Part shown: piece by piece, positions 22,116 to 64,000 of the stretch
How positions within the stretch are numbered: the first letter of the stretch is position 1
Layout: each line of letters opens with the position of its first letter
Assembly: GCA_963693315.1 (NCBI GenBank)
Contig: OY856186.1
Coordinates: 229,504,754-229,568,753 of the forward strand
Direction of reading: 5' to 3'
DNA: 64,000 bases
DNA from: Diogma glabrata
Lineage: Eukaryota > Arthropoda > Insecta > Diptera > Cylindrotomidae
The notes under the pieces: generated by a model
What the model was told of the DNA's origin: nothing
Databases searched by the model: none
What the model saw: the letters and a program-made list of their open reading frames with translations, nothing else
Position numbers and translations under genes: made by a program

Positions 22116-22467
<352 letters not shown>

Positions 22468-32141: not shown

Positions 32142-32204
32142 GTAAGTAGCATGGAAATAAATACCACTGGATTTTTACATAATTGAACTGCTTATATTTA
32201 ATAG

Positions 32205-32589
32205 GAGCGATTCCCAAAACATATTCTTCACAAATATGTAGTTGTTCTGAAAATAAGTTAGACGAGTTATGTGATAAAATTTTATTACAACATACACCGA
32301 TAACTCAGAAACCAATTGCTAGAAAGCGTTCTTTTCAAAAATCTGGTTTATCCACAAATGAAATTGAGGATGAAGCAAGTTATAACATAATCAATGTTGA
32401 TGAAAATAGTGAAGAAGAATTGCAAGTGACTAAATCTGCAAATCCGAAAACATATATGCGAAGCCCATTTATTTTACCAGCCCCAACAAATTCTGTAAAT
32501 GCAGAAATTTGTGAAAATCAGTTTCCATCGTTCCATATTCTTAAGAATACCGCATCATCGTCGAACGCAAATTGTGAAAAGATTCCAAG
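32205..32589 (+). CDS. P-superfamily transposase exon 2
   Basis: Follows an ATAG acceptor and ends at a GTAAGT donor (32590). It encodes the linker after the THAP domain: AIPKTYSSQICSC, then a Ser/Asn/Glu-rich, low-conservation region ending SNANCEKIP. Such linkers usually lie between the zinc finger and the leucine-zipper/helix-turn-helix part of P transposases. The next exon is at 34021 because a foldback element fills the intron. Confidence 0.8.
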
Positions 32590-32621
32590 GTAAGTTAGCC
32601 TAATATAATAAATACACTCTT

Positions 32622-33961
32622 GATGAAAAACGTGATCTACGCAGGTGAAAAGTCAAGATTTGAACTTGACCATTTTTGATTTTCCTGAAACTTGGCATAT
32701 TAGTAGTATGGAAAAAATAATAAATACTACTTATTTTATAATTTTTTTAAAGTGCATAGTTTGAGCATAGGGGGAACCCCAACATGCATGAAAAATGAAA
32801 ATTTTGCCAATCTGATGTAACTTTGAAATTAAATTGCTCAAGAACGGCTATACCGATTTCAGCAAACTTTCTTTTATTTGATAGATCATTAGTTAGCCGT
32901 TTGAAAAAAAATAAATTAATATTTTTTGTAATTAATTTTTAAATAAAAATATTAAAAAAACTTTTTTAAAGATGGCGCTAGGGTGGAAGAGCAATTGAAA
33001 TTTAATTAATTTTTTTCCTGAAAATAGTTCTATCTTTATTCTAAAGTATATCAAATTTACAAAGAGGCATTAATTCTAATTCTTGTTCTTGAGATATTTA
33101 ATTTTAAAGATTTTTGGTCCAACTCAAATTCGAATTTTTCTTCATTTTTTCAAACAACTTCCATTAACAAAAAATTTTAAAATCAATTAAATTTTAACTT
33201 TTTTTTTCAGTGGTTAAAATTTTTCTTCAGTGGTTAAAATTTTTTGATGATAAAAATTGTTCGAAAAAATAATGAACAATTAGAATTTTAGACTGACTAA
33301 AAATCTTTCAAATTAAATATCTCAAGAACACGAAGTAACGCCTCTTTGTAAATTTGATATATTTTAAAGTAAGGTTGGAACTATATTTAAAAAAAAAAAG
33401 TTAATATTTAATTGATTTTAAAATTTTTTGTTAAGGGAAGTTGTTTGAAAAAATGAAGAAAAATTCGAATTTCAGTCGTACTAAAAGTCTTTAAAATTAA
33501 ATATCTCAAGAACAAGAATTAACCCCTCTCTGTAAATTTGACATATTTTAGAGTAAGGATAGAACTATTTTCAGAAAAATAATTAATTAAATTCCAATTG
33601 ATCTTTGACCCTAGCGCCATCTTTAAAAAAGTTTTTTTAATATTTTTATTTAAAAATTAATTATAAAATAATAAATTAAATTTTTTTAAACATCTCTAAT
33701 CATCTATCAAATAAAAAAAAGTTTGATGAAATCGGTATAGCCGTTCTTGAGCAATTTAATTTCAAAGATACATCGGATTGGCAGAATTTTCATTTTTCAT
33801 GCATGTTGGGGTTCCCCCTATGCTCAAACTATGCACTTTAAAAAAATTATAAAATAAGTAGTATTTTTTATTTTGTCCATACTACTTATATATATGCCAA
33901 GTTTCAGGAAAATCAAAAATGGTCAAGTTTTCACAACTCTGTCTAGAACACGTTTTTCATC
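32622..33961. mobile_element. Foldback element in transposase intron
   Basis: gatgaaaaacgtg at 32622 is the inverse of the sequence ending at 33961. Arms of about 600 bases follow with matching blocks (ggtcaag..., gggggaaccccaacatgcat, gatggcgctagg, ccgttcttgagcaattt). A sub-block near atctcaagaaca-gaa-taac-cctct is duplicated within the right half (about 33310-33380 and 33500-33560). It lies wholly between the donor at 32590 and the acceptor at 34020, so it could be spliced out. Confidence 0.85.
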
Positions 33962-34020
33962 TCCTGTGAACCTGTTCTGAATGTGCTAATAAATATGTAT
34001 TCGTTTGAAACATTTTTAAG

Positions 34021-34737
34021 ATACATTTTTACAACTCCTAAGAGAAGGAAGCTTAGTAATAAATCTGAAGAAGAGAAGATGTTGGATGATTTGCTGAAAG
34101 ATAAAAATGCAGATGTTAAAACTTTTTTTAAATCACAATTTATGCATAAAAAAAATCAACATTGGACTGATCCCGAAAGAAATCTAGCATTAAAATTTTA
34201 CTATAAATCACCGGCACTTTATTTACATATGCAACAGACTGGATTTAATCTACCAGCAGTTAGCACCATACAACGCTGGCATTCGGGTATAAGATTTCCA
34301 ACGGGCATATCCGACATGGTTCTTAAAGTTTTGGAATCAAAAGTGAAGGATCTGAATAAAAGAGATCGCCGGTGCGTATTTTTATTTGATGAAATGAGCA
34401 TTAAAAATGAATTGGACTATAACATTAGAGATGATTTGGTGTATGGATTCACCGACCTCGGGCCACTGGGCCGTAATGATCGTCTCGCTTCTAGTGTTAC
34501 GATATTTATGATACGAGGGCTCAATTCAAATTGGAAGCAGTCAGTTGGTTATCTTGCTGGAAACGTTTCTGGTACCGATTTGAGCATAATAATCAATGAG
34601 GCAGTGCAAAAAATAAATAAAACAGGATACGATATTATTTGTACAACTTGTGATCAAGGTGCTAGCAATAGAACTTGTTTAAAAAAACTTGGCTCCTCAA
34701 TTGAAACTCTATACACAATAATTGATGGAAAAAAAAT
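34021..34737 (+). pseudogene. P-superfamily transposase exon 3, first part (cut by G2)
   Basis: Acceptor TTTTTAAG ends at 34020 and the frame continues in phase from exon 2. The segment has the helix-turn-helix-like TGFNLPAVSTIQRWHSGI, then the RNase H-like core: CVFLFDEMSIKNELDYN with the first catalytic Asp, VYGFTDLGPLG, and ICTTCDQGASNRTCLKKLG with the second Asp. It is interrupted at 34737 by the LTR of G2. The remaining part restarts at 40423 in the same frame, so the break is purely the insertion. Confidence 0.88.
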
Positions 34738-35735
34738 TGTAACGATCGCAATAATCGCAAAACAATAATAAAATCAAATTCCTCTTTGTTTTCAATTCAA
34801 TAGAAATGTATTACATTAATTTCCGTTCATTTTTACATTAATAGTACTTTTAAAATTTTCCCAACTTAACTGCTAATTGATTTTGAATATATTATAAAAA
34901 GCCAACGAACGTACTAAATTTTTATTTCCAATACTAATGAACAGATGTCATTGTTAATCATTGCTGAATTTTGAAGATTACCCGATTTTGTTTTGACATC
35001 ATGAGATGTCAAAAGCAAAATCACATTTTGCAATTTAAAAAAGATGGATTCCATTTTTGCTTTTCAAAAGAAAATGTTCAATTGTTTTTGGTGATTAAAC
35101 ATTAAATCAAACAAAAAAGTTAACACTGTTTTCATTAGTGTGTGATTTGGATTACATATATACATTTTTTCTGAAGTTTTTCATTATTGTTTTCATTAAG
35201 TTTTTTTTTACTTAATTTATCTTAAAAGAAATCTGCTTTATAAAATGTGGCAGTACATGAAGATAAAGTATCCAATGATGTTATCGAAAGTGTGAATAGC
35301 AAGGATAACAGTGATCGAAGCTATTACCACAGTTAGAGACAATCGTTTGTTTGATGGTTTTTCCGGTTGTTGAAACCGCATGGATTCAAAGGCAGATATA
35401 TAAATGAAAAGTTAAAGGATCAAATGCAATGTTCAATTGGGCATTTCGAACAACGAAGGTGTAATTCAACAGCAGCAACTGATGTTCACAAATTAGTTCA
35501 TCCAATATAATTAATTGATCAAACGCTAGCCAAGGCAATTAGAACCGGATCATCAATCAACAGTTAATAATTTAAGGTATTTATTGTAAATATATATATT
35601 GGTTTTAGTTTAATTATTCTCTTTGGAATGTCAGGCTAATTATATAAAATTTAAGAGATTCCCAAATTTACGATTCGATTTTATCCCGGGTAAATTCCTT
35701 TTAAATATATTAGTTAACAAAGGTCCAAGATAATA
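34738..35735 (+). repeat. G2 5' LTR
   Basis: Begins TGTAACGATCGC, ends ccaagataata. Bases 35250-35570 have no counterpart in the G1 LTR. They occupy the place where G1 carries its Cbl fragment, just before the shared block atcaacagttaat. Confidence 0.92.
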
Positions 35736-36290
35736 ACTGGCTCCGTATCAGGGACTGGATAATAACTAGCGCCGAACAAAAGGGACCCGTTAGGTTAATT
35801 ACAGTTATATTTCTTGTATTTTTTTTAGATATATATATATAAATAATTTGGTGGGAAAATATTTTCCAGGTTGGGCGTTGGCAAGCCGGTTTTTTTTTTT
35901 GAAAAAACTTTTTTTTGTGTGGAACATCTTATATTATTATATTTATATATTTATATATTATTTGATTATTTCAATTCAGATTAATAGTTTGTTTTTCGCG
36001 TCGGTTTATTTAGCTAAATTTTGGTAAAAAGCTAGAGGAAAAAAATAAAGGTTTAGTTTCTAAGGTGTTCATGTGTATATTTATCATAAGTACTCTAAAT
36101 TTATATTTTCAAAAATTTAAAGAATTCCGCGTTTCTCTTTGTAAGTTTTAGGATAAACCAGTTGTGGTTTTTTTTGGTAATAGGGTGGTGGCAATCGGTT
36201 TGGGCCGTGGTTGTCAATCAGCTTTTTGTGTATCTTGAAATAAACCAGTTATTGGTTTCGTTTTGATTAGGAAATTATATATTTTGAATT

Positions 36291-36827
36291 TTGATAAGAA
36301 TGTATACAATTATGAGGGGTCAGGGGTTGATAAGGAGGTGTCGGCCAGGTGGGTTTGAGCCCTGGATGAATGAGGTGGATGGGAGAGCGAATGAGGAGAG
36401 AAAAGAGAGAATGGTTGAGGCGAGGAATGTAGTGGATGGAATGATAAATGTGATTCTGGATGAGGTAAAACATAAAATATTTTAGGAATTGATGGATGAT
36501 ATTTACGAAGAAAAATATGATGAGTTTCTGGATGATTTGATTTGTGAGATAGTGGATGAGGAGCTGAATGGAGTGGATGAGGAAGTGAATGTGGGCTGGC
36601 GTGAGAGGAGACGGGTCAAGAGAAACAGGAGCTCACACCTGAAGAGAAAGGAGAGGAGGAAGAAGGAGAAGGAGAGTCGCTTGGTCGTGGAGCTGGGAGC
36701 TTCCTCGACCAAGAGTACTCAAATAGAGGAGCTGGTTGAGGTGGTTCCCATCTCACCGACCATGCGACAGGTAGAGGAGTGGATTGGTCCACAGGAGGCC
36801 CCTGTCCCTCACTGTATAATTAGTTAA
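36291..36827 (+). CDS. Leader ORF of G2 (broken by one UAG)
   Basis: One frame from ATG 36291 to 36827 with a single TAG at 36483-36485. A second ATG (36489) follows at once. The first part is basic (MIRMYTIMRGQGLIRRCRPG). The second is acidic at its start (DDIYEEKYDEFLDDLICEIV) and then strongly basic (RERRRVKRNR, KRKERRKKEKESR). G+C is much higher than the surroundings. Small ORFs upstream of gag are known in 412/mdg1-type elements. I see no domain. G1 lacks this segment. Confidence 0.5.
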
Positions 36828-37773
36828 GTGGTTGCTTGTTTGAAAAAAAACCGTTTTGGGACAGCAATTTTTTTTGGAGATTGTTTTTTTGTGCTGTCAT
36901 TTGCTTTTAGTAATACTAATTGTTTTTTTTAATTTGGAAAAAAAAAAAAACCGCTTTGGGGAAGCAGCTTTTTTTGAATTTTTTTTTTATGCTACCATGT
37001 ACATATTGTACATATATTTGTTTATATATTGTACATATTTTTGGATGATGCAATTAATTTATATATGAAATTAATCGTATGTTTTTCTGATTGTGGTTAA
37101 GTCATGTTTCTATGAGTTTTAGGATGTTATTAACGTAATAAAGGTTAACATTGACCAAACAGCTTTTCAACAGTTTTGTATAAGTTTAAATCTTTCGTCA
37201 CTACTTTCAAAGTATTATTGGTCTATGTTTATGGAAGTACAATTGAAAATAATTAATTCCCATCAACTTTATAGAGTGAGCCGGATCCAAATCAATATCT
37301 CTACATTTGTCATCATATTGATCCGCTAATGTACGTATACAGATCTCGTATGAGTCCATTTTAGCTACCACCATTTTTTTTTTTAAGAATTATTTTTTCA
37401 TTGCGATTAATTTTAAAAAGTGGTATAAATATAGAAATAATTATTTTTAGCTAACATTTATTTTTGTTTTGGATACAATAAATAAAGCGAAAGATTTAAC
37501 CTAAACAAATATATTAGAGTTAATAACTTAAAAATTAGTAAGCTTAGTTTTGAATTTAAAATAATCGTAATTTTTTTTTTAAATTACCAATTTATTATTT
37601 AGTCTGAAGATTAAATTTAATTAATTTCATGTAAAACTTTATTAACACATATTATGTATTTCATGTTTCGATTTAGCATTTTTAAATAAGAAATTGTTTG
37701 GATTATGGATAAGTTATGTATTATTTAGGTTTATTGATTCACTTTTCCCAGCGGTAGGCCTAACAAGCCATCC

Positions 37774-38055
37774 ATGGGGCTTATCCCCTTAACATTGATG
37801 TCGTTCTTAGATCGCCTATGGCCACCGGGGTTATGCGATCGAAGAACATTGGTTTCTTCTCTTCATTCGGCGAGGAAGTCCTCAGGGACAAGGAGTGGTG
37901 TTGCTGTGTTTGTACTTAGGTGCAAACCAGTAGTACCATTCTTTGCTCAGAGGCTTCTTCGGTGTAATGAAGAGAAGAACCAATTATACTTTGCTTTCAG
38001 GATCAGAGGCTTCACCTCATACAAATTCAAAAAAACTTTCCATTTTTCCATTTAG
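37774..38055 (+). other. Conserved leader block with open frame (G2 copy)
   Basis: The frame MGLIPLTLMSFLDRLWPPGL ... RTLVSSLHSARKSSGTRSGV ... is kept nearly unchanged in G1 (45333-45728). Conservation includes non-coding flanks, and no family is recognised. It may be a structured leader (packaging signal) rather than a protein. Confidence 0.35.
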
Positions 38056-39382
38056 ATTTACAATAGAACAATTTTTCATGGAGTTTAGGTTTTGAAGTCT
38101 GGTGCTCGGGAGCGTTCTTCAACTTTCGCATTAGGTTTAGTTGTAATTTATTTGTAGATTAAACAAGCACAACTGGCTCAGTAGAAATGGACCTAGTGTC
38201 TAATCGTGACAGTTGTGATTGTTTTATTAGGTTGGGGAGAATCTGTTCTGTAGAATCTGGTCGTTAGGGGCTTTTCTAGTCAGTTCTCACATGCATTGTT
38301 GGAGTGGGCTCGCGAACGCGATATTTCAAATTTAAATGAAATGGATATTGTAACCATACTTACTTTTTAAATTGTCTCCAGACGAATCTTGACTTTGGGA
38401 ATCTCTTATGATATTAAATAAAAATAAAATAAATCAAACAAATTTTTCAAAAATTAAATAAATAAAATTTTTATTAAATAAATTAAATTTTCGTTAATTA
38501 AAATAATTTAAGGTAAATAAATAATTTTTTTTAGAATTTAAGTTAATTTTAGGTAACTAAATAAATAAATTTTCTTAATTAAGCTTTACGTCAAGATATA
38601 AATAAATATTTTTTATTTTTTTAAAAAATAAATCAATATTTCAAAGTTAAGACGGTGCATCCGATAAATAAACATTCTTTTGAATATTTTTTATTCTTCA
38701 ATTTTTTTTAAAAATAAATAAATATTTTTAGGGGTGCTATCGTCAATAAATAATTTTAGGTATATAATTAATTCTGAAATTTCAGCATATCTGAAATTAA
38801 AATAAATAAATTATATTTTTACATATACAATATCTTAGGAATTTTTGTACAGATTCAGCAAGGATTAGCTACGACGGTCTTTCCTTTGGTTCCTTTACGA
38901 AGTTTGTTTTTTTTTTACAAAAATTTTCTGTTTTTTTTTTGGGGCGTTCGTTGGTTTTTTTTTCGTTTTGCGCTTTTTATTGTTTTCACTTTTACAGCGT
39001 ACTAGCTACATTTTTTTTTGTTGAGAGTTGGTTTTACTATTGTTGGTGATTGCGAGTCATGATTTTGCGGGTTTTACCATCGAAATCTCTAGCGTCTGTT
39101 TCCTATATACCAAGCCTAAGTTTTTCAATATATTTTTTTTATAAAATTAAATTTAGTGTTAGAATTATTAGTTGTCATAAATTAAACATCTATTCTTAAT
39201 CATTAGTTATTATAGTTATAAATTTAATTCTCGGTTTTTAGAATTTACATAGGTGTTATATTTAATATTACTTAGTTATTATAATTTTTTTTATTAGTTA
39301 TTAGAATTTCTATTATTAGTTTAAGTTTAATAGTGCTTTGGTGGTTTCTGTCATGGAGGGGATGGCGACGTTTTTGTGATTT

Positions 39383-39411
39383 CAAGAGTAGAAATCTTGG
39401 TTTCTACCTTG
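39383..39411 (+). promoter_or_regulatory. Hairpin upstream of the G2 3' LTR
   Basis: CAAGAGTAGAAA tcttgg TTTCTACCTTG forms a stem with one bulged base, ending 9 bases before the LTR. The matching G1 site (51146-51174) keeps the stem with a compensating A-T to G-C change. Confidence 0.5.
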
Positions 39412-39420
39412 AATTCATGG

Positions 39421-40418
39421 TGTAACGATCGCAATAATCGCAAAACAATAATAAAATCAAATTCCTCTTTGTTTTCAATTCAATAGAAATGTATTACATT
39501 AATTTCCGTTCATTTTTACATTAATAGTACTTTTAAAATTTTCCCAACTTAACTGCTAATTGATTTTGAATATATTATAAAAAGCCAACGAACGTACTAA
39601 ATTTTTATTTCCAATACTAATGAACAGATGTCGTTGTTAATCATTGCTGAATTTTGAAGATTACCCGATTTTGTTTTGACATCATGAGATGTCAAAAGCA
39701 AAATCACATTTTGCAATTTAAAAAAGATGGATTCCATTTTTGCTTTTCAAAAGAAAATGTTCAATTGTTTTTGGTGATTAAACATTAAATCAAACAAAAA
39801 AGTTAACACTGTTTTCATTAGTGTGTGATTTGGATTACATATATACATTTTTTCTGAAGTTTTTCATTATTGTTTTCATTAAGTTTTTTTTTACTTAATT
39901 TATCTTAAAAGAAATCTGCTTTATAAAATGTGGCAGTACATGAAGATAAAGTATCCAATGATGTTATCGAAAGTGTGAATAGCAAGGATAACAGTGATCG
40001 AAGCTATTACCACAGTTAGAGACAATCGTTTGTTTGATGGTTTTTCCGGTTGTTGAAACCGCATGGATTCAAAGGCAGATATATAAATGAAAAGTTAAAG
40101 GATCAAATGCAATGTTCAATTGGGCATTTCGAACAACGAAGGTGTAATTCAACAGCAGCAACTGATGTTCACAAATTAGTTCATCCAATATAATTAATTG
40201 ATCAAACGCTAGCCAAGGCAATTAGAACCGGATCATCAATCAACAGTTAATAATTTAAGGTATTTATTGTAAATATATATATTGGTTTTAGTTTAATTAT
40301 TCTCTTTGGAATGTCAGGCTAATTATATAAAATTTAAGAGATTCCCAAATTTACGATTCGATTTTATCCCGGGTAAATTCCTTTTAAATATATTAGTTAA
40401 CAAAGGTCCAAGATAATA
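39421..40418 (+). repeat. G2 3' LTR
   Basis: Near-identical to 34738-35735 and followed by the TSD aaat and the resumed transposase frame. Confidence 0.92.
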
Positions 40419-40422
40419 AAAT

Positions 40423-41440
40423 TTACAATTTGTTTGATCCAGTACACCTAATTAAAAGCGTTCGCAACATCTTATATAGTAACGATATTCAAATAAATAG
40501 CGGTGAAAAAACTATTTCATGGGGAATTATTAGAAAACTATATAATTGTGATAATGGCAATATTCGAGCTATGCATAAATTAACCAAAAGTCACATTGAT
40601 CCCGTGCTGTTCAAAAAAATGAATGTCTCTTTAGCTACACAAGTTTTTAGTCATAGCATTGCTTCAGCTATCCAATGTGCTGTAAGATTAGAAGTTTTTC
40701 AAGATGCAGAGGAAAAAAAATGTGCATTAGACACTGCCGAATTTATTTCTAAAATAAATATCCTGTTCGACAATTTAAATAGTGTGTCGAAATTTTCAAA
40801 AAACCCATTTAGAGCTGGAATTTCCAAAGATTCGACAATTATAAGAAATTTGGAGGAGTCTAAAAACTGGATATTATCATGGAAGCATACAGGAAGAATG
40901 AAAGTGCCGTTCTGTTTTAATGGTCTTCTTCAGACCATAAATGCAATAATAATGATATGGGAAGATATAAAAGGCGAACAACAATTTTTAATGACGTCAC
41001 GCTTATCTCAAGATCCATTAGAAAATCAAATTTCAATGATTAGGTCATTCAAAGGCAGTTACGAGAGGAATCCATCAGTATATAGAACATACTTGAATTT
41101 AAAACAGATCATGTTTCAAAACTTGGATCCTTCAGAATTTTCTAGTTACGAGAATTCAAAATCATCTACCCTACTTTCGTTTAAACCTCAGATAATTCAA
41201 CAATCATCAAATAATCCTGTTGTACATTATTCGGACAACATTGAACAGCAGTTCAACGCTTCCGAGATTTGTGATGATTTTGACATTGATTTTGACGAAA
41301 ATTTTGATATATTGAATCCAAATGAAAAGTTAAATTTAGCAGCCAAATTATATTTTTTTGGATACATATCTAAAACAATATCACAAAGAATGAATTGTAA
41401 TAACTGTACAAATTTTATGATTGAAAAAAATCCTATATGA
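40423..41440 (+). pseudogene. P-superfamily transposase exon 3, continued
   Basis: The frame resumes directly after the G2 target duplication with YNLFDPVHLIKSVRNILYSN, the conserved FDP-HL-K-RN block (a catalytic Asp). Later come SKFSKNPFRAGISKD and RLSQDPLENQISMIRSFKG, where the Glu of DPLE is the expected final catalytic residue. An acidic region follows (CDDFDIDFDENFDIL). The frame stops at 41440 in an A-rich stretch; the remaining C terminus is in another frame at 41421-41810. Confidence 0.88.
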
Positions 41441-41810
41441 AAAAAAATATGAATCAACATTTTTAGCTCCTTCACCTGCAAAAGATGTTTGCAGTGACAT
41501 TTCATCGACAATGAAAACTGATTTCGGTAGTTTGAAAATCCCCACCGCTGCATTTGAACATCATTTAGACGTGATATATAACGAATTCACACATTTATTT
41601 CAAACAAATAAAGCAGCAAAAAATTTAATCAACGGCATTCTGTTTCCAGCCATAAAGAAAAGAATTCAGAAATGGAATGGTTGTGATCATCATGAAACAG
41701 TTTTGAAGTCTGTTTTAGTTATACTATTAAGGGTTACAATCCGAAACATAAATAAATCATTCAAAGACGCTAAAAAAGGTGATCGAATTACAATATTACA
41801 AGGAATTTAA
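41421..41810 (+). pseudogene. P-superfamily transposase C terminus (frameshifted)
   Basis: Continues the protein in a different frame: KYESTFLAPSPAKDVCSDIS, TAAFEHHLDVIYNEFTHLF, then a basic end KSFKDAKKGDRITILQGI and TAA. No splice sites were found at the junction; a length change in the A run near 41428-41435 (gaaaaaaatcc) is the simplest cause. Confidence 0.75.
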
Positions 41811-41864
41811 AATATATAGTTTACACTTTTTGCCGTAGGCTCTTGGCGTAATTCGTTGAATATA

Positions 41865-42034
41865 ATATTTGTTTAACACTTGTTTTATACGCACGTTCAT
41901 ATAAATTTAAAAAAATAAAAGATTTAATTTTATTTCTATGATCACTCACGTGAGTGATCATAGAAATAAAATTAAATCTTTTATTTTTTTAAATTTATAT
42001 TAATGTGCGTATAAAACAAGTGCTAAACAAATAT
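41865..42034. repeat. 170-bp near-perfect palindrome
   Basis: Centred between 41949 and 41950 (actcac|gtgagt). The inner 102 bases are perfectly self-complementary, and the arms reach 84-85 bases each with about three mismatches. It lies just after the transposase stop. Confidence 0.95.
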
Positions 42035-42059
42035 GTTAATTTAAAATATGTAAAATACG

Positions 42060-42900
42060 AAGGGTCTGAAATCTCACAGCTGTGAGATATCAAGACTTCG
42101 GTCTGGGTTAAGGATTTTGATATAGTTTTCGGCAAAAAGCTTTTATGAGGATATGGTTTTTAGTTTTGGGCAGCGATGTATATCAAACATAACTTTTTGT
42201 TAAAGTACATGTATTTTTTATCTCTGTTTAGATACGTATTACAAAACTAACACGAAACATCAATACGTTGTCGGAAAATTATAACAAATCATTAATTAAC
42301 ATAATTTAGTGAAAAGATTATACAATCAGCAAACTACTCAAAACCTCTCCATTTAGCGTTTCGAGAAAATATTTCAAAATCACAAATTCATATTTCTTTC
42401 AAAATTCCAAAAATATTGTAAAAATTAAATAAAATCAAAAATTCAAACTTTTCACAAACAAAATTCTAAAAATATTTCAAGAGTTATTACAAAATCAAAG
42501 ACTAAAACTTTTTTCAAAAACTCTAAAAATATTGCATAAATTATAACAATATCAAAAATTGCAGCTTTTTCCAAAATTATAAAAATTATAATAAAATCAA
42601 AAATTTTAAATTTTTCAAAATTCTAAAAATATTCCAAAAATTCTTACAAAACCAAAAATTGACTTTTTTCAAAATTCTAAAAATATTCCAAAAATTAGAA
42701 TAAAATCAAATATTTAAACTTTTTCTAAATTCTAGTAATATTCCAAAAATTCTGAAACATTCAAAAATTCAAACTGTTTCCAAAAATTTAAATATATTGC
42801 AAAAATTATAACAAAATCAACAATTGAAACTTTTTCCAACCTCAAACCTTTTCCAGAATCAAAAATTTTCATCAAAACATAGATTACATGTCCCAGTTCA
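42060..42900. repeat. A-rich minisatellite-like repeat related to the 57-60 kb foldback
   Basis: After a block starting cttcggtctgggttaaggat (shared with 58198-58460), units of about 55-60 bases of the form aaaattctaaaaatattcc / aaaaattataacaaaatcaa / aaattgaaactttttcc repeat irregularly to 42900. The same unit fills 58480-59440 directly and 57740-58190 inverted. Confidence 0.75.
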
Positions 42901-43347
42901 AAAACTGAGTTTCCCAATTTCCCATTTCAATTATTATTTTTCTATCTAAAAATAAATTACCAAATGAAAACACACATACAAATGTGATTCGATTACGCAT
43001 ATATTTTGCAGTATTCATATAAAAAATTTACAAACTACATTGTTGTCATTTATATTCATTACGAACAAAAGTTTGTTCACTTTGTTTTATTTTAACATAT
43101 TAAAAGCAACAGTGTGCAAATTCAAACGTCAAACACGAAATCTTTTAGTTAAAAACTTAAGAAAGATTCGTTAAATAGAAAAAAATTATTTCGTTAAGCT
43201 AGCCAATATAATAACCAGATTTACGTTAGGTTAATCCGTGACTCAACCCTTTTTGTGTTGATTTTGCAGCGCTTGTTGCGGATACACCACATAACAAAAA
43301 ATTTTTAAACTGATGTATCTATAGTATTATATAGTCAATGGATCACA

Positions 43348-44095
43348 TCTAGTCAAAGTTTGTTCATGCAATCATGTTTAGAAAAAAATAAGTTCATTGA
43401 TAATTATATCAAAAACAAATTTTTGTAATGTTATATTTAAACACAAAAATGTTTTATGAAAGTTTGAATAGTGTGTTTTTAATTATAAGTGTCTGGAATT
43501 AAAAATAAAATAATAAATTGATACATATCAAAGATTACGTTTGATTTATTCTAAATGTGAGGATCAAATGCATATATTACACACAAATGAACATTTTAAT
43601 ATATTTACAAATAATTTAATGAGAAAATGTAAACAAGCTATAAAACTATTTAAGGAAGGTAAAGAAAAGATGTTTGATGAAAATTCTCACTATCGAAGGA
43701 ATTTAACAAAATTAAGTCTGGTTTTTTTGCACATATGTTAAGTGAATTAAAAGCTATATTTCCAAATGGATTTTTTGCTGGTGATCAATTTCGTATGACA
43801 AAATCAGATGCTGCTGAGTTTTGGAAATTAAACTTTGGAAATAGGAAATCATACTGGAAGTGAATGGGGTCCACCAATCAACAGTTAATTTAAGGTATTT
43901 TAGACTCAGATATATTAATTTTTGTTTAATTATTTTTTCCTGGGAATGTTAGGATAAAGTTTCCAGATATAAGAGATTCCCAAATTTAAGATTCGTGCAG
44001 GGACAATCCGTATCCCGGGAGTAATCTCCTTTTTTTTTTTTGTTTTGTTACTATTGGTATAAAAGGTCCAAGCTATTATATAGCTACTCATAATA
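43348..44095 (+). repeat. G1 5' LTR, second part
   Basis: Continues the LTR after the P-superfamily element and matches 51531-52266 almost exactly. Ends ctactcataata, followed by the presumed primer-binding region. Confidence 0.92.
43520..43863 (+). pseudogene. Cbl: Captured Cbl ubiquitin-ligase fragment in the 5' LTR
   Basis: About 115 codons align without gap to the N-terminal phosphotyrosine-binding module of Cbl, an E3 ubiquitin ligase that down-regulates receptor tyrosine kinases. Visible blocks: [55 protein letters not shown] (four-helix bundle), then after a two-base insertion near 43735, [19 protein letters not shown] and [17 protein letters not shown] (start of the EF-hand). It ends in TGA at 43861. 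No intron interrupts it, so it probably came through an RNA copy. The RING finger, the SH2 part and the N terminus are absent. The 3' LTR has the same fragment, so it was present when the element last moved. Confidence 0.85.
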
Positions 44096-46666
44096 ACTGG
44101 CAGCCGAAACAAAGACCTGGGGCTTTGTAAGGGTTTTTTTTATATTTGAATTATATGAGTAAATAATTAATGATTTTGTATATTTTTGGCGCAGTTTTAG
44201 GCGTTGGTTGTCAAACCGGTTTGGTTTGGCAAAGATATTCATATAATATTATTATAAATTTTTGTAATTTTTGGGTAAAACCAGTATTGATTTTTTTTGT
44301 TGACATATTTTTTGGATGATGCAATTAAAATTTATATATGAAATTAATTGTATGTTTTTTTGATTATGGTTAGATTTAGTAAATGTTTAGCTAGCTTTTT
44401 TCAATGCACTCATACGCGATCCCCATATTCGTCATTGGTTTAATGTGAGTTACAATTTCGAGGTATTGATTTATGTATTATTCACACTATAGAGTGGATG
44501 TCAATAGAACATGTCTCATTACAGTTCTATAAACTTTTGAACTTATACGGAAATGTTGAAATATTTTTATTTTGGCTAATATAATGTTCATTTTTGGCCA
44601 AAACGACTTCTATTGCGGTACGCCTTATTAGATTTTATGATTTGTACAGGGATTGTTTTGTGTATCTCATATATATATATATATACAAAATAATTTATGT
44701 CAAACCTGAAAATCTAGGTAGGTTTCCTATTGCAACACAATTCGTTTGGCGAAAGAATTTTTTGTGGTTAAGTCATGTTTTTATGAGTTTTAGGATGTTA
44801 TTAACGTAATAAAAGTTAACATTGACCAAACAGTTTTTCAACAATTTTGTATAAGTTTAAATCTTTCGTCACTACTTTCAAAGTATTATTGGTCTGTGTT
44901 TATAGAAGTATAATTGAAAATAATTAATTCCCATTAGCTTTATAGAGTGAGCCGGATCCAAATCAATATCTCCACATTTGTCATCATATTGATCCGCTGA
45001 CGTACGTATACATATCTCGTATGAGTCCATTTTAGTTACCACCATTTTTAAAATTATTTTTTATTGCGATTAATTTAAAAAATAAGATAAATATAGAAAT
45101 AATTATTTTTAGCTAACATTTATTTTTGTTTTGAATACAATAAATAAAGCGATGAAAATTTGACCTGAACAAATATATTAGAATTAATAACTTAAAAATT
45201 AGTAAGCTTAGTTTTAAATTTAAAATAATCGTAATTTTTTTTATAATGTAAATTACCAATTTATTATCTAGTCTGAAGATTAAATTTAATTAATTTCATG
45301 TAAGCATTTTTAAATAAGAAATTATTTAGATTATGGATAAGTTATGTATTATTTACTTTATGTTAATGTATAAATTCTTTCACAGCGGTAGGCCTAAAAA
45401 GCCATCCATAGAGCTTCTCTCTTTAACATTGATGTCGTTCTTAGATCGCCTATGGCCATCGGGGTTATGCGATCGAAGAACATTGGTTTCTTCTCTTCAT
45501 TCGGCGAGGAAGTCCTCAGGGACGAGGAGTGGTGTTGCTGTGTTTGTACTTAGGTGCAAACCAGTAGTACCATTCTTTTCTCAGAGGCTTCTTCGGTGTA
45601 ATGAAGAGAAGAACCAATTATGCTTTGCTTTCAGGATCAGAGGCTTCACCTCATACAAATTCAAAAACTTTTCCATTTTTCCATTTAGTTTTACAATAAA
45701 ACAATTTCTCATAAAGTTTAGGATTTGAAGTCTGGTGCTCGGGAGCGTTCTTCAACTTTCGCATTAGGTTTAGGTGTAATTTATTTGTAGGTTAAACAAG
45801 CACAACTGGGTCAGTAGAAATGGACCTAGTGTCTAATCGTGACAGTTGTGATTGTTTTATTAGGTTTGGGAGAATCTGTTCTGTAGAATCTGGTCGTTAG
45901 GGGCTTTTCTAGTCGGTTCTCACATGCATTGTTGGAGTGGGCTCGCGAACGCGGGAATTCAGATTTAAACAAAATGGATATATTGTACCATACTTACTTT
46001 TTAAATTGTCTCCAGACGAATCTTGATTTTGGGAATCTCTTATCTTATTAAATAAAAATAAAATAAATAAAACAAATTTTTTAAAATAAATAAATAAAAA
46101 AATTTTTATTAAATAGAATAATTTTTTTTCTTTAGAATTAAATAATTTTAGGTAACTAAATAAATAAAAAAATTTTTTTAAATACACACTACATCAAGAT
46201 ATAACTAAATATTTTTTATTTTTCTTAAAAATAAATCAATATTTTGAGCTAGGACGGTGCATCCAATAAATAAACATTCTTCTAAATATTTTTATTTTTC
46301 AATTTTTTTTAAAAATAAATAAATATTTTTAGGGGTGCTATCGTCAATAACTAATTCTAAGTATATGATTAGTTCTGAAATTTCAGTATATCTGAAATTA
46401 AATAAATAAATTATATCTTTATATACAATATTTTAGGAATTTTTGTGAAAGGTAAAGCAAAGATTAGATACGACGGTGGTCTTTTTGTTCTTTTACGGAA
46501 TTTGGTTTTTAAAAATTTTTTGTGTTTTTGAATTGGGCGTTCGTTGTTTTTTTTTCGTTTTTGCGTTTTTCATTTTTTCCATCGTACTAACTACATTTTT
46601 TTGGGGAATTGGTTTTTATATTGTTGTCGTTTGCGAGGTAATAATTTTACGGGTTTTACCATCAAA
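44096..46666 (+). other. G1 leader (5' untranslated region)
   Basis: Begins actggcagccgaaacaaagacc, a weak match to a tRNA-type primer-binding site; in G2 the related sequence at 35757-35780 is actagcgccgaacaaaaggg. About 390 bases (44370-44768) have no match in G2. From 44769 to 46665 it closely follows the G2 leader. Confidence 0.6.
45333..45728 (+). other. Conserved leader block with open frame (G1 copy)
   Basis: Shares LTLMSFLDRLWPSGLCDRRT and the following ~60 residues with the G2 block at 37774-38055; the two have drifted mostly outside this block. The N-terminal part before SIELLSLTL is not shared, so a common start codon is doubtful. Confidence 0.35.
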
Positions 46667-47887
46667 ATGTCAAACCAACTAGACGTTGACCATCCGTTCT
46701 ATGGTTTGGAACCCACCGAACTACAGATCGAATGTCTGGTTCGGGGTGTGAACTTCAGGGGGAACAATTGGGCAGAGGACTTTGCAATACCACAATTGGG
46801 TCCATCACTACAAGCTGAACACATTATCATTATCACGCAATTATCATTGAATTATCCATCAGTACCACAGGTACAACCACCACCATTATATCCACAAGCT
46901 CCACTTACAGCACCACCACCATACAACCAACCTCCTCAGGCATGGCGTGACGCGGCTCCAGCGTTAGCACCAGTGGAGTACCGAGGGGTTCATGGGAACA
47001 ATTTGAGTCGTTATGACTCAAATTGGGTTCCAACCTTCACAGGAGATGGTCACTCTCCTGATGTTCATGAGTTTATTCATAGAGTGGAGGCGGCTGCCAG
47101 GAGGGACCGTGTGAATTGGGACGACCTTAGGTCTATCGTTCCACGGTATCTCAAGGGAGCTGCCGACAGATACTATCTGAATTTAACTCATGAATATGAG
47201 GTGGTGACCTATCCAGTGTTAAGGGAGGGACTCCTACAAACCTTCGGTACGCTCACTGATGATAAGGCGATCTTGCGAGTTCTTCTGAACCGCAAACAAA
47301 AGTCAAAGGAGAGCGTATATGAGTATCTGGTGGAGATTGGTTCGTTAAACCGTCGCTTAGCACGTCCATTTGCTGATCGTGAAATGCTAGAGATTGCTCG
47401 GGAGGGACTGAGTGTGGAGCTCAAAAATGCTACACTAGCAGCAACAATACATTCAATTGATGAACTTCGGACTTTATGTCAGAAGTTTGAACGTTTGTGG
47501 TCCACACCAGTTCCGACCAGAACATCAAATTTAAGAATTAGCGAGCTACAGCAAGTGGATGATTATGAGGTGGATGTTGAACTAGAACGACATGGATATA
47601 TTGAAACGATGGATTCAACACAGTCCGAACAACAGCACGAAGAAAGCGACGAAAGATGTAGCGACGCAGGACGATCTTCCACCACTCAAGAAAACCAAAT
47701 AAAATCATCAAATACATTTAATTTCCCATCATTACATCGAACGTATTTTAGACGTCTGGAACGTAACATTAGATATTGGAGGATGAGGAAATTATTTCGC
47801 AAAGCATGTATTTCATCTATCCTTTCAGAAACAAAGGATCCTCGGCCGCGACTAACAATAAAGATTTTGGACAAACATATTTCATGA
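46667..47887 (+). CDS. gag: G1 Gag
   Basis: Capsid/nucleocapsid polyprotein, 406 codons from the ATG at 46667. The frame is open further upstream to 46544, but those residues are low-complexity Phe/Ile and the ATG matches the end of leader homology. N-terminal region, then a Pro-rich stretch (PPPLYPQAPLTAPPPYNQPP). The Ty3/gypsy gag core follows: WVPTFTGDGHSPDVHEFIHR, RYLKGAADRYY, YPVLREGLLQTFG. There is no CCHC zinc knuckle in the C-terminal part, which instead is acidic then Arg-rich. It ends at a TGA in the same frame as pol. Confidence 0.85.
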   Translation: MSNQLDVDHPFYGLEPTELQIECLVRGVNFRGNNWAEDFAIPQLGPSLQAEHIIIITQLSLNYPSVPQVQPPPLYPQAPLTAPPPYNQPPQAWRDAAPALAPVEYRGVHGNNLSRYDSNWVPTFTGDGHSPDVHEFIHRVEAAARRDRVNWDDLRSIVPRYLKGAADRYYLNLTHEYEVVTYPVLREGLLQTFGTLTDDKAILRVLLNRKQKSKESVYEYLVEIGSLNRRLARPFADREMLEIAREGLSVELKNATLAATIHSIDELRTLCQKFERLWSTPVPTRTSNLRISELQQVDDYEVDVELERHGYIETMDSTQSEQQHEESDERCSDAGRSSTTQENQIKSSNTFNFPSLHRTYFRRLERNIRYWRMRKLFRKACISSILSETKDPRPRLTIKILDKHIS

Positions 47888-47890
47888 CTA

Positions 47891-50173
47891 TTGGATAGTG
47901 GAGCGTCAATCACTATACTTGGAAGAAATTCCTTGGAATTATTGGAATCATCAGGTACAACCTACCGTAAATATACTTCGTGTATTCGTACGGCGGATGG
48001 TACTGCAAATAAAATTTTAGGTTACATTGAAATTCCAATAACTGTGAATGGCTCCACTAAACCAATGCGGTTCCATATAGTCCCTGGTTTACGAGAAGAG
48101 CTCTACCTGGGCATAGATTTCTGGGAGAAATTCGGTATTATTCCTTCTTTTGTTAGTGAACTGACTCGTACAGAGCCAATAACTTTAAATACACACAACC
48201 TCACCACTGATCAGCAACATGAACTGGATATGATCAAGGATTCTTTCCCGTCATTTGAAGTGTCTGGACTCGGAAAGACTTCTTTGGTTGAACATGTCAT
48301 CGATGTTGGTGATAGTGCACCTGTTAAACAGAGGCATTATCCCACATCGCCGGCTGTTCAACTAAAGGTTTATGCCGAACTCGACCGAATGCTTCAAATG
48401 GGCGTGATCGAAGAGAGTAACAGTTCTTGGTGCTCGCCAGTGGTTTTGGTACAAAAAGAATCTGGTAAAAACAGATTATGTATTGATAGCCGTCGTGTCA
48501 ATTCACTAACTAAAAAGGACGCTTACCCACTTCCCTTGATTGATGGCTTACTAGGTCGTCTAAATAGCACAAAGTACATTTCAAGTATTGATCTCAAAGA
48601 TGCTTTCTGGCAGATTCCTCTGGCAGAAGCATCTAGAGACAAGACAGCCTTCACAGTGCCTGGTCGTCCATTGTATCAATTCCGGGTTATGCCCTTTGGA
48701 TTGTGCAATGCTCCCCAGACAATGTGTCGGCTAATGCACAAAGTGATACCACATCAATATCACGAAAATGTCTTTGTTTATTTAGATGATCTATTGGTAG
48801 TCTCTTCCACGTTCCAGGAACATATGGAATTGCTGTCCAAAGTCTCTTCATTGTTAAGAGCGGCTGGGTTAACAATAAACCTCAAGAAAAGTAAATTTGT
48901 TCTGAGAGAGGTGAAATACTTGGGATTTTTGGTTGGTGAAGATGGTCTTCGAACAGACCCTGACAAAGTAAGAGCTGTAGCAGAGTACCCAGCTCCATCT
49001 ACAGTAAAACAAATACGTAGACTATTGGGAATGGCTGGTTGGTACCAACGTTTTATACCAAACTACGCAAGCGTGGTATCACCGATAACGGATTTATTAA
49101 AGAAAAGTTCTGGGAAATTGAAATGGACATTGGAAGCGCAAGCTGCTTTCGAAAATTTAAAACGATTGCTGACTACAGCACCAGTTCTAATAAACCCTGA
49201 CTATAATAAAGAATTCTTTATTAGATGCGATGCGAGTTTGACAGGGATAGGTAGTGTGTTGTATCAGGTTGATACTGACGGACAAGAGTGTCCGATAGCC
49301 TTCATGTCGAAGAAATTAAATAAAGCTCAGAGAAATTATTCGGTTTCTGAGCTTGAATGTCTTGCGGCAATTCTGAGTGTGAAGAAATTCAGGGGCTATG
49401 TTGAAGGTCACCGATTTACAATTGTGACTGATCACTCAAGTCTGAAGTGGCTTATGTCACAGAAAGACTTGAGTGGTCGTTTGGCTAGGTGGAGCCTAAA
49501 ACTCCAACATATGGATTTTACCATTGTCCACCAAAAAGGTACCCAAAATATAGTCCCTGATGCTCTATCTCGTCTTTATGACGATACACACGAGGAATTG
49601 ACGGAAGCATTAACACATCACATTAACGACATCAAAATCGACAATGAAGGTTATCGGCCCAAGGAATATACGGATATGATAGCTAAAGTTCAATCATCAC
49701 CCAAGGACTTTCCATCTGTTAAAGTCGTGGATGATAAGCTATACATACGTATTGAGCCAAGACCTGATGCAATACCTAACGATGTTCCTGTGTGGAAACT
49801 CTGGGTACCAAAACCGATGACTTCAAACATGATTCAGAAACATCATGATGATAGTACTGCTGCTCATGGAGGTGTTAAAAAGACTTTAGAATTACTTCGA
49901 CGTCTTTATTACTGGCCGGGCATGGCGTCACAGGTACACAACTATGTTGTGTCCTGCGACACATGTAAACAAACAAAAGCCACAAATCAGATATTGCGTC
50001 CTCCGATGCAATATCAATTCGAAACAGCACGTCCATGGCAGAGAGTCTATATAGATTTTTTGGGACCGTATCCTCGTTCTACACTTGGGAATACGGTGTT
50101 ATTGATAGTTCTGGATCATGCTACGAAGTTTGTACTACTGAAACCACTTAGAAACGCAAATTCACCATTCTGA
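47891..50173 (+). pseudogene. pol: G1 Pol: protease, reverse transcriptase, RNase H, integrase N-terminal part
   Basis: In frame with gag, separated only by TGA (47885-47887); no ATG is available. Retropepsin LDSGASITILG (Asp at 47894) lies within the first residues. RT: SSWCSPVVLVQKESGKNRL, SIDLKDAFWQIPL, LPFGLCNAPQ-type block read as MPFGLCNAPQT, and catalytic YLDD at 48779-48790. RNase H: IRCDASLTGIG, SELECLAA, VTDHSSLKWL. Integrase HHCC zinc finger (MIQKHHDDSTAAHGG ... SCDTCKQTK), then VYIDFLGPYP with the first catalytic Asp. It ends prematurely at 50173. Domain order PR-RT-RH-IN is that of Ty3/gypsy. All catalytic residues I can see are intact. Confidence 0.92.
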
Positions 50174-50859
50174 GGAATGAAGTGTTTCTTACATATGGGG
50201 TACCAGAGTTTCTACACAGTGACAATGGCAAACAGTTCACTAGTAGGAACTTTCAAAGTCTTTTGTCAGATTTCGGCATTAAACACATTAGGACCGGTGT
50301 CTATAGTCCTCAAAGCAACGCGTCAGAGCGGGTCAAAAGGTCAGTTCTAGCAGCAATTCGAGCGTTCATAAAAGGTCAACACACCAAGTGGGATTCACAA
50401 ATTGGTGAAATCGCATATGCACTGCGGGCAGCAGTACATTCAGCTACCAAGTACTCACCGTACTATTTATTATTTGGTCAACATCCAATATCGGATGGAA
50501 ATACTTACCAATTGTTGAGATCACTACACCAGCTTGGTGAAGATGCTGGTGAGGAATTAGAACGCTCTGATCATTTGACTCTGCTCAGGAACCGGGTTCA
50601 ACAAAATTTAAAAGCAGCCTTCAAAAAATCGCAACATCAGTATAATCTGCGATCTAAACTACGGACTTTTCAACCACAACAACGTGTGTTTGTACGGCAA
50701 CATCATTTGAGTGACGCTACAAAAAAATTCTCGGCAAAATTGGCTCCAAAGTTCTTACCTGCAATGATTAAGACTAAGATTGGAAATGTACTCTATGAGT
50801 GCACAGATATGAGCGGTAAGAATCTTGGAGTCCATCACGCGAAAGACATCAGGGAATGA
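50174..50859 (+). pseudogene. pol: G1 Pol: rest of integrase (out of frame)
   Basis: Continues integrase in another frame: VFLTYGVPEFLHSDNGKQF with the second catalytic Asp, then VYSPQSNASERVKRSVLA with the catalytic Glu, and a GPY/F-like C-terminal part to TGA at 50859. The segment normally linking PLRN to RNEVF is short of several residues, so a small deletion near 50160-50175 fits better than a single-base frameshift. No further ORF before the 3' LTR. Confidence 0.88.
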
Positions 50860-51183: not shown

Positions 51184-52266
51184 TGTAACGTCCGCTATGT
51201 TCGCCTAAACAACAATAAAACTAATTCATCTTCTTTTTCTAATTCAATAAAAGTTTATTTCATTAGTTTCAGTTCACTTTTACATTGATAATAATTTTAA
51301 AATTTGCTAATACTTAACGGCTAGTTAAATTTCGAATATACTATAAAAAACAAACGAACGTACTCAATTTTATTTCCAATTCTAACGAACAGATGTCGTT
51401 ACTAATTTTTGCTGAATCTTTGGTATTACACGATTTTGATTTTCATTAGAAGATGTCAAATCAAAAATCACATTTTGTGGTTTTGAATGAGTTTTCGATG
51501 TTAAAAGTTTGATCACATCTAGTCAAAGTTTTTTCATGCAATCATGTTTAGAAAAAAATAAGTTCATTGATAATTATATCAAAAACAAATTTTTGTAATG
51601 TTATATTTAAACACAAAAATGTTTTATGAAAGTTTGAATAGTGTGTTTTTAATTATAAGTGTCTGGAATTAAAAATAAAATAATAAATTGATACATATCA
51701 AAGATTACGTTTGATTTATTCTAAATGTGAGGATCAAATGCATATATTACACACAAATGAACATTTTAATATATTTACAAATAATTTAATGAGAAAATGT
51801 AAACAAGCTATAAAACTATTTAAGGAAGGTAAAGAAAAGATGTTTGATGAAAATTCTCACTATCGAAGGAATTTAACAAAATTAAGTCTGGTTTTTTTGC
51901 ACATATGTTAAGTGAATTAAAAGCTATATTTCCAAATGGATTTTTTGCTGGTGATCAATTTCGTATGACAAAATCAGATGCTGCTGAGTTTTGGAAATTA
52001 AACTTTGGAAATAGGAAATCATACTGGAAGTGAATGGGGTCCACCAATCAACAGTTAATTTAAGGTATTTTAGACTCAGATATATTAATTTTTGTTTAAT
52101 TATTTTTTCCTGGGAATGTTAGGATAAAGTTTCCAGATATAAAAGATTCCCAAATTTAAGATTCGTGCAGGGACAATCCGTATCCCGGGAGTAATCTCCT
52201 TTTTTTTTTTTTGTTTTGTTACTATTGGTATAAAAGGTCCAAGCTATTATATAGCTACTCATAATA
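51184..52266 (+). repeat. G1 3' LTR
   Basis: 1083 bases, nearly identical to the two parts of the 5' LTR apart from a 40-base deletion after 51513 (gat...gat), a variant near 51401 (cgttac versus cgttcc) and a T-run length change. Followed by TSD aggt and the second half of element A2. Confidence 0.93.
51690..52033 (+). pseudogene. Cbl: Captured Cbl ubiquitin-ligase fragment in the 3' LTR
   Basis: The same sequence as 43520-43863 within the 3' LTR, including the two-base insertion that breaks the frame near the VF-HML junction and the terminal TGA. Its presence in both LTRs is expected if it was part of the LTR before the last transposition, because both LTRs are copied from one template. 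Confidence 0.85.
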
Positions 52267-52430
52267 AGGTTCTTATTAAATCAATAATAAGATGTTATTA
52301 AATTAATAATGAAACTTATTAAATTAATAATGGAACTTATATTTTACACTCTTTAAATAAAAGAGAGCATACATTTTTTATTAACGATTTTATTTATTTC
52401 AATTATTTTCATTAATTCTTAAGGTCTTAA

Positions 52431-62147: not shown

Positions 62148-62220
62148 ATTAAGTATTATTCTACAAGTTTCATATATTATTTGGTGTTATTTTATTTGTT
62201 AATTTAAATTTTTTCTTTTA

Positions 62221-64000
62221 ATGAATTCAAATTCATTAGTTTTATATCCTAATATTGTTTCAAAATACTCTAACTTAAATTTATTTTCATCAAACAAGAA
62301 CAAAGATAATCTCAACATTCTATATCTTAATATCAGAAGTCTTCGTCATAAATTACAGGATCTTGAAGTAATATTAAATTCTTATTCTGATTTAGTCCAT
62401 GTGATAATTTTAACGGAAATTTATATATATGAAAATGAAAACAAATTCTACAACTTACATTCATATAATTCTTACTTCAGTAATAGAGATTCAAATATTG
62501 GCGGTGGATGCGCTGTGTTTGTCCATGAATCTATTCAATCTTCATTCATTGCTAGTTCTTCTATAAATAATATTGAGTATATCGTAATTAATCTTTCAAA
62601 TTTACATATTAATTTGGTTGGTGTTTATAGGTCACCTAGTTCTGACGTTGCAACTTTTTTAAATATATTTGAAAATAATATATTGAACCTAAAAAATTCA
62701 ATAATTATGGGTGATTTCAATTTTAATTTGCAAGACAAAGATGATAATGTTGTTATTCAGTATTGTAATCTAATAACCAGCTGCGGATTTATGTATTTAA
62801 ATTCTTTGGATACGAAAATGTCAACTAGAGTTTCTAACACAAGTTGTACAACAATTGATCATGTGATTACTGATATCATTAAAAATTTTGAAATTTCAAT
62901 TACCGATTGTGATCTTTCGGATCACAGAATGTTACAGCTTCGTTTTTGCCTTGCTAATAAATCTAAACGTACCCCAACAATTTACTCAAAAAGTTTTATT
63001 GATTATTTTTCCATTAACAATGCCTCTATGTACAAAGATCAGATAAATGAAGTACAAAATTTTTCGGAGTTCAGTGATGTTACCCAAAACTGCATTCAAA
63101 ACAATACAGTCTTAATTCCAAATTCCAAATCACGTCAAAAATTTGTAAATCCCTGGTTTAGTGATAAATTGCTGAGGATTAAAAAAATCAAGGACTATTT
63201 TTATAAATTGAGATTGAAATTTCCTGACAACCAATATGTTATTTCTCAATTTAGATTTTATAGAAATAATTTAAAAGTAGAGTGCTTGAATGCCAAAAAA
63301 AGTTATTATAATAGTCTCATTTCTAAAAATATTGCTAATCCTAGTTATTTGTGGAAAATTGTAAATGAACTAATTTATAACAAAAGTAATAAGCAATCAG
63401 TCATTACAAAAATTAAAAAAAAAGACATAGAACTAACGCACCCAATTAAAATTGCAAATGCTTTTAACGAACACTTTATTGAGGTAGGATCAAAACATAA
63501 TCAACAATTTTCAGTTTGCAATTTTTCTAATTTGACACCCTGTAGTCCGAAAAAAGGTATCAACTTTTATCTTACGCCTACTAGTGCAGTTGAGTTGGAA
63601 TCTATAATTAAGGGTCTAAATTTATCTGCTGCTAACGGTGCTGATTGTATATCTTCTAGATTTTTAAAACAACAAATTAATGATATAATTAATCCACTAG
63701 AAAAGTTGATAAATTCTTGCTTAGAGAAATGTGAATTTCCTGGATAATTTAAAGATAGCCAAGGTTCTTCCATTATTTAAATCTGGAAAAAAACAAATAT
63801 GTCAAATTATAGACCAATTTCAATTTTGAACAGTGTTTCAAAAATATTTGAAAAAGTTTTGTTAGCTCGTCTTGAAACTTTTTTAACTGCCAATGAAATA
63901 ATTCATCCTCAGCAATTTGGTTTTGCAAGTCGGTCAAGCACTTTAACTGCTTGTGTTCATATGATAGATTTTGTACAAAAAAATATTAGTAATGGTCTTT
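62221..64000 (+). pseudogene. Non-LTR retrotransposon ORF2: endonuclease and reverse transcriptase (CR1-like), runs off window
   Basis: ATG 62221. Apurinic-type endonuclease: ILYLNIRSLRHKLQDLEVIL, ILTEIYIYENE (metal-binding Glu), LVGVYRSPSSD, IIMGDFNFNLQD (Asp, Asn), TTIDHVITDI and the catalytic DLSDHRMLQL. Then a connector and the RT N-terminal region (LTPTSAVELESIIKGLNLSA). The frame breaks at 63747 and again near 63790, beyond which SNYRPISILNSVSKIFEKVL and HPQQFGFASRSSTLTACV continue the RT in another frame to the end. The SDH box and GDFNF are intact, so the endonuclease reading is uninterrupted, but RT is broken. Confidence 0.88.

Follow-up and report, generated by a model that had tools for sequence, protein, structure and literature searches.

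The window, a stretch of 64,000 nucleotides of Diogma glabrata DNA, contains a Ty3/gypsy-type LTR retrotransposon (G1 below); this element, its parts and its nested insertions all lie on the forward strand. Repeat alignment and reading of the flanks placed the 3′ LTR at 51184–52266 (1083 bp, TGTAACG...TCATAATA), far outside the limits of 51690–52033 given in an earlier note on this DNA, and its left limit recurs in most of 28 loci. The 3′ end of G1 is repeated at 31031–31357 with 99.4% identity, showing that the LTR is longer than first read. The 5′ LTR had been described as one piece and is in fact split by a P-like insertion (31405–43340) into a first part at 31031–31404 (2 mismatches to the 3′ LTR in 327 nt) and a second part at 43341–44095, found by repeat alignment, which includes a Cbl-derived stretch at about 43352–43845. 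Reading of the flanks gave a target site duplication, AGGT, at 31027–31030 on the left and 52267–52270 on the right. The two LTR copies are 2 substitutions and one T apart in 757 nt and 2 substitutions apart in 327 nt. A stretch of about 40 nt within 31031–31404 is missing from the 3′ LTR, and an insert of similar size sits at the same place in many other copies. Because the LTR copies differ little besides these 40 nt or so, the G1 insertion is, on this comparison, fairly young.

After the 5′ LTR comes the stretch TGGCAGCCGAAAC, a candidate primer binding site. The open frame list includes a frame at 46532–47884, gag-like by its position and with no Pfam match found for 46667–47884, which ends at an in-frame UGA just ahead of the protease motif. 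This UGA is followed by CUA (47885–47890) just before the DSG motif of the protease, reflecting either readthrough or decay. The pol region at 47888–50173 contains a protease motif (seen by eye), reverse transcriptase, RNase H and an integrase zinc finger (PF00078, PF17917, PF17919 and PF17921), and the integrase core (PF00665) follows in another frame at 50152–50859, so that pol is broken in this copy. Owing to this frame change within the integrase at 50152–50173, the copy is probably non-autonomous. The Ty3/gypsy-type assignment is based on the direct LTRs of 1083 bp with their short target duplication and on the order of reverse transcriptase, RNase H and integrase along 47888–50859.

The insertion in the 5′ LTR is a P-like DNA transposon of 12 kb, flanked by a 7-nt duplication (GATCACA at 31398–31404 and 43341–43347), with 30-nt inverted repeats at its ends and encoding pieces of a P-element-type transposase. 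The transposase is split by a second LTR element related to G1, termed G2, giving a nest of three levels: G1 inserted first, followed by the P-like transposon in its 5′ LTR. The LTRs of G2 (5′ at 34738–35735 and 3′ at 39421–40418) have 1 mismatch in 998 nt; the 5′ LTR has no Cbl and carries a different sequence in the same slot (35031–35550). Elsewhere in the window there are a long TA-rich microsatellite which is open in several frames (22064–22544) and open frames at 62203–63747 and 13431–14147 which by eye resemble the endonuclease and reverse transcriptase of non-LTR retrotransposons.

The G1 LTRs carry a piece of Cbl in sense orientation, as the earlier note had claimed. Translation of 51690–51902 gave 71 residues which matched the Cbl_N family (PF02262) over residues 1–71 (E = 4.8e−24) and CBL structures in PDB (best E = 9.6e−23), all 32 matched sequences being Cbl proteins. 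In another frame, 51890–52030 matched CBL-B and CBL in PDB (best E = 1.6e−14; all 36 matched sequences were Cbl proteins), and its Pfam match, Cbl_N2, was under the family cut-off (20.6 vs 22 bits). With the two frames joined, a protein search found 202 relatives, the best with 90–91% identity over 99% of the query; PF02262 was present in all of the best 120 of these, and sequences named Microctonus and Danaus were among the relatives, which reach 91% identity. The bases of 51690–52033 are found identically at 43520–43863, confirming that the fragment is present in both LTRs. The roughly 115 codons of the earlier note do not form one open frame, as the frame shifts in the G1 copy.

The same genome contains a host Cbl exon at C1:342443199–342443645, the best match to a Cbl exon-1 query; this intact exon is 96% identical to the query, with an open frame of 185 aa. 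Exon 2 and two more coding pieces lie downstream of this exon 1, in order, starting 17.9 kb on. Within 200 kb around the gene, LTR queries hit two pieces of Cbl: a 169-nt stretch of the 5′ leader, and exon 1 between an internal point and its splice donor. The LTR piece is a fusion of these 169 nt of leader with 323 nt of exon 1. In the G1 3′ LTR the leader stretch lies at 51522–51690 (94.7% identity over 170 columns of the DNA alignment to the host) and the exon 1 stretch, which starts at a cryptic acceptor within the exon and ends at the exon-1 donor according to the host and protein alignments, at 51691–52014. Native LTR sequence, which occurs in LTRs without Cbl too, resumes at 52015 (GAAATCATACTGGAAGTGAATGG...) and runs to 52266. 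The host-derived part is therefore longer (51522–52014) than the 51690–52033 reported previously and includes Cbl 5′ leader. No Cbl protein similarity was found upstream of 51690 (106 of 200 resampled sequences scored as high), the leader being detectable as DNA alone.

Between the leader and the exon piece the gene has a 328-nt GT...AG stretch (GTCAAA...TCTTCCAG), with the presumed start codon inside it, which is missing from the LTR. A GT...AG pair at that spacing, allowing a one-base slide, occurs at 27 of 3669 nearby positions (0.7%). The stretch is also retained in a duplicate of Cbl exon 1, so its absence from the LTR is not simply due to a deletion allele. The putative donor, AAAGTG|GTCAAA, appears weak, and splicing of the Cbl mRNA there is presumed. 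Where exon 1 ends, the gene has AATAG|GTAAAA and the LTR AATAG|GAAATC; the start of exon 2 is different, and the LTR past the donor is neither intron 1 nor exon 2 (best exon 2 score 18, equalled by 88 of 300 shuffles). A candidate exon 2 match in the LTR tail (KSYWK vs TLVPWK) was rejected, with a score of 21 against a resampled mean of 23 and 137 of 200 resampled scores at least as high. The exon-end motif was present in 91 of 120 Cbl proteins fetched from databases, and the gene call stops there in 66 of them, as at a donor AG|GTAA. The exon-1 edge is not uniform across sources: exon 2 continues directly in 5 of the 91, and the other 20 have different tails, several of them donor-like. From the absence of the GT...AG stretch and the end of the match at the exon-1 donor, we conclude that the LTR carries RNA-processed, spliced Cbl sequence. 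These two features support the RNA-mediated capture which had been suggested earlier. The argument from an absence of introns carries no weight, as the whole captured coding piece sits in a single exon in the host genome and in the other insect gene calls seen.

Two further loci were seen near the gene. The duplicate of Cbl exon 1 and its flanks (L042, C1:342309342), the second-best match to the exon-1 query, lies 134 kb upstream with about 95% identity and a broken frame. About 160–170 kb downstream of exon 1 there is a pair of LTRs without Cbl (L045–L064, C1:342602634 and C1:342612336) which are 99.3% alike and related to the left part of G1 (81–83%).

LTRs without Cbl were searched for using an exact pattern just past the donor, excluding the Cbl base five before it, which gave 4 matches against 0 for the control. 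Three of the four (L065–L067) are LTRs of the G1 family without Cbl: they share the left part up to GATCACATCTAGTCAAAGT, followed by an AT-rich slot of 441–463 nt and then the same right tail, with GATCACATCTAGTCAAAGT and AGGAAATCATACTGG at the edges. The host Cbl leader contains GTCAAAGT exactly where the LTR match begins. The Cbl piece is thus very probably a reverse-transcribed, spliced host transcript which replaced about 440–460 nt of native LTR. In the route we propose, a Cbl transcript would lose the cryptic intron and have its exon-1 donor joined to an AG|G within a family member's LTR, and the resulting chimeric RNA would be packaged. After the first strand transfer, reverse transcriptase would copy the end of the LTR and then Cbl, and would jump back to the element RNA at the 8-nt match GTCAAAGT, which the Cbl leader and the native LTR have in common. 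The captured region would become both LTRs, so that each jump would copy the Cbl piece twice, and the cassette would then spread and be exchanged between LTR subfamilies. No LTR of the G1 family was found in the 17.9-kb intron 1 of Cbl (within the 200 kb around the gene), so the chimeric-splicing step is proposed with no surviving donor locus.

The RNA could also have been captured by template jumps at short matches at both outer edges (GTCAAAGT and AGG) with no chimeric splicing. There is short common sequence at both edges, and at the 3′ edge the Cbl gene and the LTR overlap by 3 nt (AGG), where a plain template jump is possible; however, the exact coincidence of this edge with the exon-1 donor then becomes chance, and we regard this route as possible but rather doubtful. 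Capture of the fragment from DNA through recombination or repair is possible in principle, and protein similarity would likewise end at the exon edge if an intron came next, but the sequence after the exon edge is not intron and the GT...AG stretch is missing though both gene copies retain it, which makes this very unlikely. Donor gene, captured piece, relatives without Cbl and both breakpoints occur together in a single genome, and the exon part retains 96.6–99.4% identity, so that under capture as a spliced transcript the route can be followed base by base.

Judging from its position about 250 nt from the LTR end, the Cbl piece most likely lies in U3. The earlier statement that it is transcribed from either end is therefore wrong or unproven: a full-length RNA would probably contain one sense copy near its 3′ end. 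The placement of the piece in the LTR means that two sense copies of an exon of a conserved signalling gene would enter the genome with every full insertion.

The Cbl exon-1 query of the genome gave 995 candidates, of which the best 150 were scored, and 151 matches were listed, a lower bound which includes the gene and its duplicate. We aligned 39 LTRs. These came from 40 loci which scored best by similarity to the Cbl stretch out of 820 candidates and are not a random sample; L002, truncated in its 5′ part, was left out. All 39 LTRs match the 492-nt spliced host reference, 37 of them from its first base (base 0) and all to base 490 or beyond, with L016 and L030 beginning later. Differences from the host over the 39 LTRs amount to 0.6–3.4% in the exon part and 1.8–9.4% in the leader. 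A single capture event is likely, because one substitution absent from both gene and duplicate is common to all 37 LTRs compared. Four substitution sites distinguish the gene from the duplicate: at three of them the LTRs agree with the duplicate (36, 37 and 37 of 37), and at the fourth they agree with the gene. At one indel 32 LTRs agree with the gene (37 compared, leaving out the far-end columns in which the duplicate is gapped). As the LTRs side partly with the duplicate and partly with the gene, the donor was probably an ancestor of today's Cbl gene. Target duplications of 4 bp were read for L013/L014 (AGTT) and L021/L022 (AAAT) among 12 LTR pairs, the other pairs being unclear or read to one end. 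One lower-scoring copy (L069, C1:74703300–74704000) agrees with the others in its left and inner joints and matches the spliced reference at 96% over the first 431 bases, after which the Cbl piece breaks off and a different tail takes the place of the 3′ part.

The sequences around the Cbl piece were compared between 25 elements, with one per side dropped for an unclear edge; Cbl-bearing elements had been chosen by Cbl similarity and those without Cbl by their exact tail. On average the left flanks differ by 8.3% and the right flanks by 22%. L065, which lacks Cbl, is only 2.3% from the Cbl-bearing L033 on the left, and L067, also without Cbl, is 0.9% from L032 on the right. In the contrary direction, the nearest left flank to that of L066 differs by 4.7%, and every right flank is about 19% or more away from those of L065 and L066. 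At 0.6–3.4% difference from the host, the exon part looks younger than its flanks, suggesting that the cassette probably moved between LTR backbones by recombination. The G1 family thus represents mobile elements which carry a piece of host Cbl transcript in place of part of their own LTR at many sites, and offers a way to study the uptake of host RNA by mobile elements and any effect on the gene copied.

Cbl is a signalling gene and not a silencing gene, and the slot which it occupies contains unrelated sequences in other subfamilies; both points count against the idea that the insert helps the element through small RNAs with a dampening effect on host Cbl, as has been proposed for TART-A and nxf2, and we consider it unlikely. 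TART-A is a telomeric non-LTR element. In favour of the idea, exact 21-mers are common to the LTR and the Cbl leader and exon 1 (196 in the G1 copy and 321 in L027; host stretch of 801 positions), and TART-A/nxf2 in Drosophila melanogaster is a published precedent, with a retroelement which, like G1, recently took up part of a host gene, with several copies and possible piRNA feedback (PMC7785250). By comparison, the G1 piece is spliced, lies inside the LTR and comes from Cbl. Given the exact 21-mers shared with Cbl, small-RNA cross-talk with the gene is possible, and it can be tested directly in this system.

Several other retroelements resemble G1 in part. Pieces of host genes are carried by plant LTR elements, including Bs1 and those of maize, where 425 elements have at least 189 gene-fragment captures; these are described as fragments inside the elements (PMC2774510), whereas the G1 capture replaces part of the LTR. 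In v-Cbl, a retroelement likewise took up the tyrosine-kinase-binding part of Cbl, as a 357-residue protein; the G1 piece is shorter, lies in the LTR and has stops in most copies examined. Cassandra, Helenus and Ajax also have host-derived sequence built into their LTRs, but they are non-autonomous with 5S rRNA- or tRNA-like sequence (PMC10886601), whereas G1 has a spliced mRNA piece and pol. BARE-2 is described as having had part of its LTR replaced through abnormal template switching, with another retrotransposon as the donor instead of a host gene (PMC13317346). No report of Cbl in an LTR retrotransposon was found among the titles and abstracts surveyed, which does not prove absence. A search of IMG/VR for Cbl gave no match.

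The Cbl frame is free of stops in 11 of the 39 LTRs and has at least one stop in the other 28, and the G1 copy has in-frame stops directly upstream of the Cbl piece as well as a shift of frame inside it. As expected for transduction of a host gene, there is a donor gene elsewhere in the same genome and the captured part is in processed form; the captured part has not been kept as a coding frame. Inspection gave no sign of coding constraint, and variable sites were seen at all three codon positions (27 LTRs). As far as this evidence goes, the Cbl piece is a passenger. Selection keeping the Cbl stretch in the LTR was suggested by its low diversity (2.0% against 5.5–25.5% in the rest of the LTR between 27 elements from the first 40 loci, and 8/3896 against 34/3469 differences in the left part within 12 LTR pairs) and was set aside as most improbable, since the loci were picked by Cbl similarity (best 40 of 820), the flanks have been exchanged, and the codon positions and stops described above argue against it. 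Flank exchange accounts for the difference in flanks between elements and not for the contrast within pairs, and we would put the low within-pair difference down to the picking of loci alone.

The fourth match to the tail pattern (L068, C4:138841371) has the right tail common to the family and short matches on the left (41 nt at 80% and 22 nt at 91%), and its membership of the family is less sure. Its slot gave 21 matches from 21 candidates in the genome, including 7 full-length copies at 96–100%. Two pieces on C5 (C5:11309300 and C5:11290295) lie on one strand in the correct order, 19 kb apart, and correspond to slot positions 8–345 (89%) and 348–426 (93%), leaving the two bases between them unaccounted for; the remaining 12 matches were short and partial. 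The second piece is preceded by an acceptor-like stretch, TTTTAATTTTCATTACAG, and the donor side of the first reads N. Three tests compared the C5 flanks with native LTR sequence. Two showed no resemblance (32 and 57 of 100 shuffles scored as high), and one, of the pyrimidine-rich stretch ahead of the second piece, came closer (5 of 100). As a protein, the slot gave Pfam matches below the cut-offs alone and none in the protein database. These results point to the L068 slot as a probable second capture of spliced host RNA.

Taken with the Cbl capture, this raises the serious possibility, still somewhat short of probable, that the U3 of the family is a recurrent landing slot which takes up spliced host RNAs: these would be joined close to a fixed AG|G and then copied into U3 by reverse transcription, with cassettes traded between subfamilies. 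The cases would be Cbl, probably also the L068 subfamily, and possibly the G2 slot. If so, these elements keep rewriting their own control region with the 5′ parts of host genes, and the reused slot would be a source of change in LTR control regions of which no description was found in the literature surveyed. For the G2 slot, a score of 44 for Cbl was inside the range of 15 resampled scores (36–76) and Cbl was rejected. No other host gene was recognised there by Pfam (four pieces and further pieces) or in PDB (best E = 0.66), and of two candidates in the protein database neither was scored. In the genome, the best 40 of 1309 candidates for this slot were scored and all were 97–100% identical, a set in which a source gene would be hidden. 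GC is raised in the slot at 35031–35550 (to 0.44), where a single frame extends from about 35240 over about 100 codons with three stops.
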